Origin: Lachnospiraceae bacterium | GTDB taxonomy: Bacteria; Bacillota; Clostridia; Lachnospirales; Lachnospiraceae | Length of the DNA stretch: 64,000 nucleotides | Assembly (NCBI GenBank): GCA_029063085.1 | Contig: JAIDOW010000054.1 | Span: 30,100-94,099, forward strand | Direction of reading: 5' to 3' | Shown here: positions 21,917-64,000 of the stretch, in pieces | How positions within the stretch are numbered: the stretch's first letter is position 1 | Layout: the number at the start of each line of letters is the position of its first letter | Notes under the pieces: model-generated | Told to the model about the DNA's origin: nothing | Seen by the model: the letters and a program-made list of their open reading frames with translations, nothing else | Database searches by the model: none | Made by a program: the position numbers and the translations under genes

Positions 21917-21989
21917 GGAATCTTAGCTCAGCTGGGAGAGCATCTGCCTTACAAGCAGAGGGTCACAGGTTCGAGCCCTGTAGGTTCCA
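21917..21989 (+). tRNA. tRNA-Val(TAC), copy 1
   Basis: Acceptor GGAATCT/AGGTTCC; anticodon loop CTTACAA; T-arm GGTTCGAGCC. Confidence 0.95.
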
Positions 21990-22013
21990 TTTTTTACAAT
22001 ATGCCGATAAGGC

Positions 22014-22104
22014 TGGCATTGAACACTTGGTGAAGCTTGCTGATCCTAGTGCAAAAGCCCACCTGAGACCTTAACGAGTAAAGCAAGTTTAGTTCGAATG
22101 GTGC
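22014..22104 (+). ncRNA. Candidate structured RNA of unknown identity inside the tRNA cluster
   Basis: CATTGAAC/GTTC-G-AATG lower stem, AAGCTTGCT/AGCAAGTTT upper stem, asymmetric internal loop, ~40-nt apical region. Confidence 0.35.
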
Positions 22105-22126
22105 AATTGATAAGTGAAGAAAATAT

Positions 22127-22199
22127 GCCGATATGGCTCAATTGGCAGAGCAGCTGATTTGTAATCAGCAGGTTGAGGGTTCGAGTCCCCCTATCGGCT
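22127..22199 (+). tRNA. tRNA-Thr(TGT)
   Basis: Acceptor GCCGATA/TATCGGC; anticodon loop TTTGTAA. Confidence 0.95.
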
Positions 22200-22202
22200 T
22201 AT

Positions 22203-22276
22203 GGACCATTAGCTCAGCTGGTTAGAGCAATCGGCTCATAACCGATCGGTCCCGGGTTCGAGTCCCTGATGGTCCA
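22203..22276 (+). tRNA. tRNA-Met(CAT), elongator-like
   Basis: Acceptor GGACCAT/ATGGTCC; anticodon loop CTCATAA; no GGG/CCC anticodon stem expected of an initiator. Confidence 0.9.
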
Positions 22277-22396
22277 TTATATAAAATGATAATTGTTTAT
22301 CAACAGCTCTTTTACAAATGGGTAAACTTGTGATATAATAGAAAAAGATTATTTACTTGTAACGGTGAGTTTCATTGTAATAAAATAAAAATATAT

Positions 22397-22470
22397 GGCC
22401 TGGTGGCTCAGTTGGTTAGAGCGCCGCCCTGTCACGGCGGAGGTCGTGGGTTCGAGTCCCATCCGGGTCG
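22397..22470 (+). tRNA. tRNA-Asp(GTC)
   Basis: Acceptor GGCCTGG/CCGGGTC; anticodon loop CTGTCAC. Confidence 0.95.
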
Positions 22471-22530
22471 TTTGTGAGTAATCATATACAAAAGAAGAGA
22501 CAAGTTCTCAATAAATATTGCTCCCAATAT

Positions 22531-22603
22531 GGAATCTTAGCTCAGCTGGGAGAGCATCTGCCTTACAAGCAGAGGGTCACAGGTTCGAGCCCTGTAGGTT
22601 CCA
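22531..22603 (+). tRNA. tRNA-Val(TAC), copy 2, identical to copy 1
   Basis: Same 73 nt as 21917-21989. Confidence 0.95.
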
Positions 22604-22638
22604 TTATTTATCGGTTTACATAGTGAATCGATAAGTAT

Positions 22639-22725
22639 GCCGGCGTGGCGGAACTGGCAGACGCACAGGACTTAAAATCCTGCGGGACTTATACTCCCGT
22701 ACCGGTTCGATTCCGGTCGCCGGCA
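22639..22725 (+). tRNA. tRNA-Leu(TAA)
   Basis: Acceptor GCCGGCG/CGCCGGC; anticodon loop CTTAAAA; long variable arm. Confidence 0.95.
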
Positions 22726-22767
22726 TTAAAGCCTGCTTTTTTTAGTAGGTTTTCTTTAACTTCATAT

Positions 22768-22841
22768 GTGTGTGTAGCTCAGCTGGATAGAGCACTTGGC
22801 TACGGACCAAGGTGTCGGGGGTTCGAATCCTCTCACGCACG
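22768..22841 (+). tRNA. tRNA-Arg(ACG)
   Basis: Acceptor GTGTGTG/CACGCAC; anticodon loop CTACGGA. Confidence 0.95.
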
Positions 22842-30793: not shown

Positions 30794-31066
30794 AAATTCT
30801 TGTTTATCTTACGAAGGGGGACGCTTCCATGGCGGGTGAGGGCGGACGCAGGAATCTATGGATATAGGGTTCTACGAAAGACACGTTTGCACTCAATATT
30901 CCAACGTAACGGTACATAAGAGGCTATCCTGCAAGCAGGCTACCCTCTAAGTACCGACGTTTCCACAAGGTCTTTCTTAAGAACCCTATATCCATAGATT
31001 CCTGCTGGTCGGTGATACAATACAGGTGCCATGGAAGCTGTTACTTGGCAGAATGAACAAGAATTT
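30794..31066. repeat. ~270-bp palindromic/structured element, copy 1
   Basis: Termini AAATTCTTG/CAAGAATTT; 11-bp stem 30823-30833/31028-31038; perfect 26-bp stem 30848-30873/30980-31005; apical GGTAC...GTACC hairpin. Confidence 0.85.
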
Positions 31067-31218
31067 CTGCCCTGCGGGCGGCACAGCTGGTACTATTGTG
31101 ACCGGTTAGCTATTGGACTTTAAAATATTATTTATTACCATCCGGTAAGAAAAGCAATATTGGATACGAGACTACCTTCCACCCAGAACAAATATCCCCT
31201 ACCCCGCCGGAGGCAAAT

Positions 31219-31487
31219 AAATTCTTGTGTTGATTCTACCAGTAAACAGCTTTCAACATGAGTCTTTGAAGAGTCTAAGCTGTGGAGAAATACTTGCTGT
31301 TTCTCGGTAGGACTTTCGCACCCATCGGTACTTAACGATTGGATGTCGCAGACGTCCAAGAGTTTAGTACCGCTATGTGTGCGAAGGAGCGAAAGCGGGG
31401 ACGAACGAGAACAGCAAGTATTTCTCCACAGCGAACCCCACCAACCCCTCATGTTGAAAGCGTCCCTAGTAAGCCAAACAAGAATTT
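31219..31487. repeat. ~270-bp palindromic/structured element, copy 2
   Basis: Termini AAATTCTTG/CAAGAATTT; perfect 14-bp stem 31249-31262/31448-31461; perfect 22-bp stem 31279-31300/31411-31432; apical GGTAC...GTACC. Confidence 0.85.
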
Positions 31488-55027: not shown

Positions 55028-55216
55028 TGCCCTTCCTCCTTTCTCTATATATTATAACAGGATATTTTATTTTTCTTTTCATATATCTTGCGGTTTTAAT
55101 GGCAATTTTTTTCTGACACGTAGATCATTAGGGCACATAAAAAGGAAAAGACGGTACAGCCCTTATATTGGGATATACCGCCTTACTATAGAAAATCTTT
55201 CCTATGACTAAAAATA

Positions 55217-55302
55217 AATTCTTGTGTTGATTTTACCAGAAACAGCTTTCAACATGAGCCTTGAAAAGTGTAAGCTGTGGGAAAATACTTTGCTGTTTCT
55301 CA
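55217..55302. repeat. Half copy of the AAATTCTTGT element (left arm only)
   Basis: AAATTCTTGTGTTGATTTTACCAGAAACAGCTTTCAACATGAG...AAGCTGTGGGAAAATACTTTGCTGTTTCTC matches left arm of copy 2. Confidence 0.85.
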
Positions 55303-62767: not shown

Positions 62768-63927
62768 GAAATCCATTATCTGATAAAGTGATTAAAATGA
62801 AACCATCAGGAATCCGTAAATTTTTTGATATTGTAAGTGAAATGCCAGATGCAATCTCCCTCGGTGTAGGAGAGCCGGATTTTGATACTCCGTGGAGTGT
62901 CAGGGAAGAGGGAATCTATTCTCTTGAAAAGGGGCGTACTTTTTATACTTCCAATGCAGGCCTGTTAGAACTCCGGGAGGCGATATGTGAGTATACAGAC
63001 AGACGTTTTCATATCGCATATAATCCCAAAAGTGAAGTATTGCTTACAGTTGGCGGCAGTGAGGGGATTGATGTGGCATTACGTGCAATGTTAAATCCGG
63101 GAGATGAAGTCATTATTCCAGAACCCTGTTTTGTTTCCTATGTCCCATGTGTGGAATTGGCAGACGGTATTCCTGTTATCATTTCTTTGAAAAATGAGAA
63201 TCGGTTTCGTCTGACAAAAGAAGAATTGGAGAATGCCATTACCGATAAAACGAAAGTATTAATGTTGTCCTATCCGAACAATCCGACAGGTGCAGTTATG
63301 GAACGTGAAGATTTAGAGGCAATTGCCGAAGTTGTAATTAAACATGATATTTATGTGATTTCCGACGAAATCTATGCTGAACTTACATATAATAGTGGAC
63401 ATGTCAGTATTGCATCTCTTCCGGGCATGAGAGACAGAACTATTGTAATTAATGGATTTTCCAAAGCCTTTGCAATGACAGGCTGGCGGCTTGGATATGC
63501 ATTAGGACCGGCAATGATTATGGAACAGATGACCAAAATTCACCAGTTTGCAATTATGTGTGCACCAACTACAAGCCAGTATGCAGCTATTGCGGCACTT
63601 CGTGAGTGTGATAAAGATGTGGAGCGTATGAGGGAATCTTATGATCAGAGAAGAAGATATCTGCTGAATGAATTTAAGGAAATGGGACTATCCTGTTTTG
63701 AACCGTACGGAGCATTTTATATATTTCCATGTATTAAGGAGTTTGGCATGACTTCGGAGGAATTTGCCACAAAACTCTTAAATGCTAAGAAGGTAGCAGT
63801 GGTTCCGGGCAGTGCTTTTGGAGAATGCGGGGAAGGATTTTTACGCATTTCTTATGCATACTCCCTGGAAGAATTAAAGGTTGCGATTGGGCGTCTCAAA
63901 TCCTTCATAGAGGAGATTAGGGGATAA
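62764..63927 (+). CDS. PLP-dependent class I/II aminotransferase
   Basis: AISLGVGEPDFDTPWSVREEGIYSLEKGRTFYTSNAGLLELREAI...LMLSYPNNPTGAVM...VINGFSKAFAMTGWRLGYA; overlaps Lrp stop. Confidence 0.95.
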   Translation: MRNPLSDKVIKMKPSGIRKFFDIVSEMPDAISLGVGEPDFDTPWSVREEGIYSLEKGRTFYTSNAGLLELREAICEYTDRRFHIAYNPKSEVLLTVGGSEGIDVALRAMLNPGDEVIIPEPCFVSYVPCVELADGIPVIISLKNENRFRLTKEELENAITDKTKVLMLSYPNNPTGAVMEREDLEAIAEVVIKHDIYVISDEIYAELTYNSGHVSIASLPGMRDRTIVINGFSKAFAMTGWRLGYALGPAMIMEQMTKIHQFAIMCAPTTSQYAAIAALRECDKDVERMRESYDQRRRYLLNEFKEMGLSCFEPYGAFYIFPCIKEFGMTSEEFATKLLNAKKVAVVPGSAFGECGEGFLRISYAYSLEELKVAIGRLKSFIEEIRG

Positions 63928-64000
63928 ATTCTTGTTTGGCTTACTAGGGACGCTTTCAACATGAGGGGTTGGTGGAGTCCGCTGTGAAGATATCATAGGA
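63926..64000. repeat. AAATTCTTGT element, copy cut by window end (inverted relative to copy 2)
   Basis: AAATTCTTGTTTGGCTTACTAGGGACGCTTTCAACATGAGGGGTTGGTGG equals the reverse complement of the right arm of copy 2. Confidence 0.85.

Follow-up and report, generated by a model that had tools for sequence, protein, structure and literature searches.

A candidate family of strand-specific structured intergenic elements dispersed in Lachnospiraceae genomes

REP/BIME/REPIN sequences (RAYT, Y1 HUH transposase) are palindromes scattered between genes, frequently as inverted pairs, that occur in many copies per genome and are mobilised in trans; MITEs are small and non-coding, have inverted ends and are amplified as units; integron attC sites are folded hairpins with free stem sequence, conserved extrahelical bases and one functional strand; and uncharacterised Rfam-type bacterial ncRNAs are intergenic, strongly covarying and without known function. 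The element described here, found in a 64,000-nt stretch of Lachnospiraceae DNA (the whole stretch analysed, hereafter the window), shares these traits with each of the four, unit amplification being seen in the window's genome and mobilisation in trans being presumed. Unlike REP/BIME/REPIN sequences, it has ~270 nt per hairpin, a three-way junction, a GNRA loop and a stem whose sequence is free and covarying, and 7 of 12 genomes rich in the element lack Y1_Tnp. Unlike MITEs, it is conserved at the apex and not at the ends, which vary between copies and species; it lacks a clear target-site duplication and shows RNA-type covariation. Unlike attC sites, it has a much longer stem and is conserved at the apex, and no cassette arrays or integrase adjoin the elements among the 119 matches listed. 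Unlike the Rfam-type ncRNAs, it has many dispersed copies per genome and a hypervariable long stem, and it is absent from Rfam 15. It partly resembles REPINs, MITEs and attC sites, and a defining feature of each was either missing or could not be shown. As in the original prediction, which matched the element to no named family, no Rfam family was found to account for it: in the window and at 17 related loci no Rfam 15 family scored above its gathering threshold, and the only matches, of plant microRNA type and other hairpin types, were far below threshold and spurious. Searches of openly accessible literature turned up no description of the element. It appears to represent a previously uncatalogued, large new structured-element family of Lachnospiraceae.

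The locus had been described as two adjacent copies of a self-complementary element. Both palindromes are present, but they lie in opposite orientation and together make up a single ~694-bp repeat, of which each is one inverted half, and are not separate copies (Table 1). The common termini reported for them, AAATTCTTGT, occur at both halves (30794 and 31219 on the + strand; 31057-31066 and 31478-31487 on the - strand), and the pairings named for them lie where they had been placed, the 26-bp, 23-bp and 14-bp arms (the last at 31249-31262/31448-31461 in the right half) all being 100% complementary. Almost end-to-end folding is likewise borne out, with folding energies of -121.2 and -122.4 kcal/mol for the two halves, z scores of about -11 (left) and -12.6 (right) within an overall range of -11 to -12.7, and 0 of 200 shuffles folding as well. 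The model CM R1 matches the window at 30850-31000 (-; 98.1 bits) and 31282-31432 (+; 84.3 bits), and its only further signal there is a weak antisense echo of the right-hairpin match. One compensated pair distinguishes the window's two cores, CGT/ACG on the left corresponding to CAT/ATG on the right. Because the window's long stems are different, exchangeable cassettes, the pair by itself gives no stepwise compensation, and the argument from two copies is weaker than it had appeared; the idea of compensated stems holds instead for the wider family, which shows covariation. Elsewhere in the window lies a cluster of seven tRNA genes (21917-22841, +).

Table 1. Positions of the unit, its parts and further copies in the window
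Feature	Position	Strand	Remarks
Complete ~694-bp unit	30794..31487	.	Two hairpins (left and right) with a spacer between them; whole unit repeated in the genome
Outer ends of the ~694-bp unit			AAATTCTTGTTTA / ..AAACAAGAATTT
Left hairpin element (type A)	30794..31066	-	Core on - strand; fold z=-11 to -12.6; CM R1 match
P1 long-stem arms, left hairpin	30848..30873 / 30980..31005	.	26-bp perfect inverted repeat
P3 mini-hairpin GU-GCAA-AC (GNRA loop), left element	30885..30892	-	Alignment
P2 apical core CGTCGGTACTTAG...CTTATGTACCGTTACG, left element	30905..30959	-	
Spacer (~152 bp) between the two divergent hairpins	31067..31218	.	Conserved in all aligned unit copies
Right hairpin element (type C)	31219..31487	+	Core on + strand; fold z=-12.6; CM R1 match
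P1 long-stem arms, right hairpin	31279..31301 / 31410..31432	.	23-bp perfect inverted repeat
P2 apical core, right element	31323..31377	+	
P3 mini-hairpin GC-GAAA-GC (GNRA loop), right element	31389..31396	+	
Truncated copy, spacer end and 5' part of right hairpin	55212..55301	+	Match G000:C62:85311-85400
Copy cut by contig end (outer end of unit)	63926..64000	.	Match G000:C62:94025-94092

The 3.3-Mb draft genome of the window (G000) contains 42 exact occurrences of the outer-end motif AAATTCTTGTTTA; together with one-mismatch forms, these indicate some 25 or more units. End-to-end alignment of nine units, all complete or nearly so, shows that they have outer ends, spacer and outer arms in common. 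The hairpin cassettes that they carry fall into types A and B on the left and C and D on the right, all four combinations of which occur, and we infer that unit copies swap hairpins by recombination. The lengths of the two arms change together (for example, from G5/C5 to G6/C6). At the ends of the nine units we found no target-site duplication beyond one or two matching bases, save one in an A-run; a search of the window's genus with joined flanks gave no clean case of a site lacking the window's unit; and a search with the end motif found no autonomous transposon having the same ends in this draft genome, in which many contig breaks lie at copies. Many unit matches reach contig ends, indicating that element copies break assembly; as a practical warning, contig breaks in the draft genome often coincide with element copies. 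The terminal inverted repeats are common to the copies in the window's genome and differ in other genomes, even among copies in G290, a member of Lachnospiraceae. One deletion derivative (L029 1-250; G000:C97) has the spacer of the right-hairpin side fused directly to the apex of the left hairpin, and another palindromic repeat, GTTGCCACCCAACCC..GGGTTTTT..GGTGGCAAC, lies in or beside element copies at L011 (G000:C80 ~79900-80300) and L054 (~1440-1500).

Used as query against further genomes of the family, the whole unit in most cases matched over no more than ~35-60 nt around its apex, and these apex matches sit on long stems that are unrelated in sequence yet complementary. A search of GTDB genomes with the apex pattern yielded at least 119 loci, mostly labelled Lachnospiraceae, and the structure was derived from an alignment of 89 diverse members and a scan for covarying columns. 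The fold comprises P1, an internal loop, P1b and a three-way junction with P2 and P3, around a core of ~80 nt. P1 is a long stem, free in sequence and always complementary. P2 has a variable, covarying lower part, followed by the helix CGUCGGUAC (CGUCGGUACUUA) / GUACCG[YU]ACG, with a conserved 2-nt YU bulge (CT 85, TT 36). P3 is a 2-bp hairpin whose four-base loop is GNRA in 116 of 119 cases (126 elements, many genera), the second base being A, C or G (78, 22 and 19) and the third A or G (65 and 54), never a pyrimidine. A second core type in G290 has CCCAC/GTGGG in place of the nearly invariant GGTAC/GTACC, indicating that the conserved helix covaries too; the near-invariance of GGTAC/GTACC is partly a matter of ascertainment, the set having been selected by pattern. 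At L108 (1897-2055) the hairpin AGCGCAATTTATTGCGCTTACGCAAGCG is inserted in P3, which therefore tolerates extension.

Two alignments show covariation throughout this fold. The first (A1), a MAFFT alignment of 89 sequences made without fitting to the structure, has a covariation score of 0.363, as compared to 0.154 +- 0.006 in shuffles; 72.5% of cells are paired, as compared to 35-43% with partners slid; and double changes are seen at 41 of the 47 pairs. In the second (A2), which comprises 126 model-aligned matches and, being fitted to the model, gives upper estimates, the corresponding values are 0.590, 86.4% (31-41% in slid controls) and 44 of 47, with five or six pair types at nearly all P1 pairs. 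In both alignments 100% of P3 cells pair, and 17 of them in A1 are double-substituted. Among P1 mismatches with three Watson-Crick pairs on each side, the only informative ones, G.U exceeds A.C on the GNRA strand (41 vs 19; p=0.006), which indicates that one strand folds; counted without this helix context, the numbers are 230 vs 302. We conclude that, as judged from the alignments, the fold is strand-specific and is maintained by purifying selection in numerous copies from many genera, and the earlier suggestion that pairing is under selection is supported by very strong covariation among many copies. Of the findings named beforehand as contrary to that suggestion, an Rfam match and a many-copy alignment lacking covariation were both sought, and neither was obtained.

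The coupled changes in P1 arm length are a sign of template switching between arms, and homogenisation of arms can imitate part of the P1 covariation. These changes, together with amplification of the whole unit, fit an ordinary MITE or foldback element, in which inverted repeats would serve a DDE transposase and complementarity would arise by template switching with no structural selection. Template switching accelerates the covariation pattern but cannot alone produce it, and it explains neither the conservation of the GNRA loop, nor the strand-specific G.U bias, nor the conserved YU bulge of P2. In addition, no clear target-site duplication is seen, orthologous loci show stronger conservation of the core than of its flanks (see below), and the sequences at the base vary between copies and genomes while the core is kept, the reverse of a MITE. 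We regard this explanation as already disfavoured and very improbable.

The history of individual copies was accessible at orthologous loci. Another genus provided two species for comparison: of 11 G620 loci fetched, 10 have orthologues in G207 that share both flanks. Core identity is 96.2%, with 0.1% gaps; the next 60 bp are 90.3% identical, with 13.1% gaps, and the wider flanks 93.2% identical. The exception is the pair L322/L340, in which core identity is 77% and six pairs are compensated, the GNRA hairpin being intact and P3 having changed from GUGAGAAC to ACGAAAGU with its loop retained. Orthologous loci with conserved cores imply that copies are kept in place for long times, which argues against frequent movement in that genus. 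At the G290:C9 locus, by comparison, the sister species G683 has an intergenic gap of ~25 nt that contains neither arm nor core. Because both arms are missing from the empty site, the arms belong to the element, and an origin of the arms by inverted duplication of a host target is rejected at this one locus. We conclude that, on the evidence of these genome comparisons, copies have been amplified and dispersed and have been gained or lost at some loci. Of the two alternatives in the original prediction, structured RNA and palindromic mobile element, both appear partly right, since RNA-grade structure (GNRA loop, G.U bias) occurs on an element that has been dispersed and amplified and that shows presence/absence differences. 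A very abundant REP-like palindrome, GTGCAATTTGGGGACAGTCCCCAAATTGCAC, occurs in G290 and G683 (e.g. G290:C9:52370-52410), and G290 has a Y1 transposase gene.

The empty site also fits the main rival, according to which folded single-stranded DNA is the functional form. It would be a strand-specific substrate for recombination or transposition in the manner of integron attC sites or REP/IS200 hairpins, with pairing maintained for a DNA enzyme that has to recognise the strand when folded. Whole-unit amplification with near-palindromic ends and the neutrality of the elements to gene orientation are in keeping with such a substrate. The strand bias does not discriminate, since G.T over A.C in single-stranded DNA would fit as well as G.U over A.C in RNA; the P3 loop, however, is GNRA and not merely GNNA, and its always-purine third base, an RNA-type rule, appears to favour RNA. 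The conserved part of the element is the apex, unlike in attC, whose conserved boxes lie at the base of the hairpin. The Y1 HUH transposase (PF01797) was rejected as general mobiliser: 7 of 12 genomes rich in the element lack it, the complete genome G391 with 17 copies being one of the seven. The only Y1 transposase match in the window's genome (G000:C41:11852-12214) contains two in-frame stop codons. Neither promoter enrichment upstream nor a terminator T-tract downstream was found in 129 elements, so independent transcription is unsupported and a role as folded single-stranded DNA stays the main rival. We consider such a role somewhat unlikely.

The elements are intergenic in 82 of 88 cases, as judged by open reading frames, and often lie no more than tens of bases from gene ends. 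The arrangement of neighbouring genes is unbiased (p=0.40, 88 elements), and orientation to the flanking genes shows no preference (24 sense-sense vs 30 antisense-antisense). Close pairs are always divergent, none being convergent (fourteen pairs in one set, five in G391); one tandem array, L278 (G110:C59:124700-126300), has four co-directional elements with a ~164-bp period. Position near gene ends, conservation of each copy in place and long perfect stems, which are typical RNase III substrates, would suit a cis-acting mRNA element for processing, stability, insulation or termination, active in any read-through transcript that extends across it. Such an element is hard to reconcile with the unbiased gene arrangement, the lack of a T-tract and the lack of a sense or antisense preference in spite of a strand-specific core, and we judge it quite improbable. 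A cis-regulatory leader or terminator was rejected on the same grounds of orientation and T-tract. A linked protein partner was rejected as well: apart from common ABC transporters, no gene recurs near the 119 matches listed, which leaves no candidate partner. Also rejected was the use of the stems as guides against phages or the cell's own genes: the 22-nt type A stem is confined to element arms in G000, where the one site outside them has three mismatches, and two stems had no viral match, a third matching once, by chance, within a reading frame of a phage.

We favour, with a probability of about one half, the reading that the unit is a divergent pair of intergenic elements of one kind that would specify a conserved, strand-specific structured RNA and that may have been mobile formerly or intermittently. 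The apical core would then be the part recognised by a trans-acting partner, either protein or RNA, and P1 would be a sequence-indifferent support or clamp. The elements might spread as small non-autonomous mobile elements, SINE-like or MITE-like, with the mobilising enzyme supplied in trans. A more specific proposal, which we think unlikely, is a bacterial analogue of SINEs, in which a trans-acting Lachnospiraceae enzyme would recognise the three-way-junction/GNRA core of an ncRNA and would copy or insert the hairpin between genes as RNA or single-stranded DNA, the long stem being any sequence that pairs.

The distribution of the element centres on one family. CM R1 matches occur in 165 of 397 Lachnospiraceae genomes and 146 of 334 genera, and among 246 genomes drawn from the class Clostridia just two non-Lachnospiraceae had a match, which in each was single and weak. 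The number of copies in complete genomes is 5-17. Carriage by phages or plasmids was rejected, there being no plasmid match, no exact match in viral contigs and, from phages, no more than four weak matches, all to faecal phage records that lack annotation. About 40% of the species sampled from this family, which is dominant in gut and rumen, carry an RNA-grade covarying element that is absent from Rfam 15 and that poses the question whether bacteria have SINE-like RNA elements. The covariance model, the three-way-junction architecture, the ortholog sets with compensatory changes and the empty site make expression, partner and mobility directly testable. The element was also seen on MAG contigs labelled Gastranaerophilales or Bacteroides (L085, L108, L120, L151, L173, L181, L186, L194 and L198), which are probably mislabelled or misbinned.
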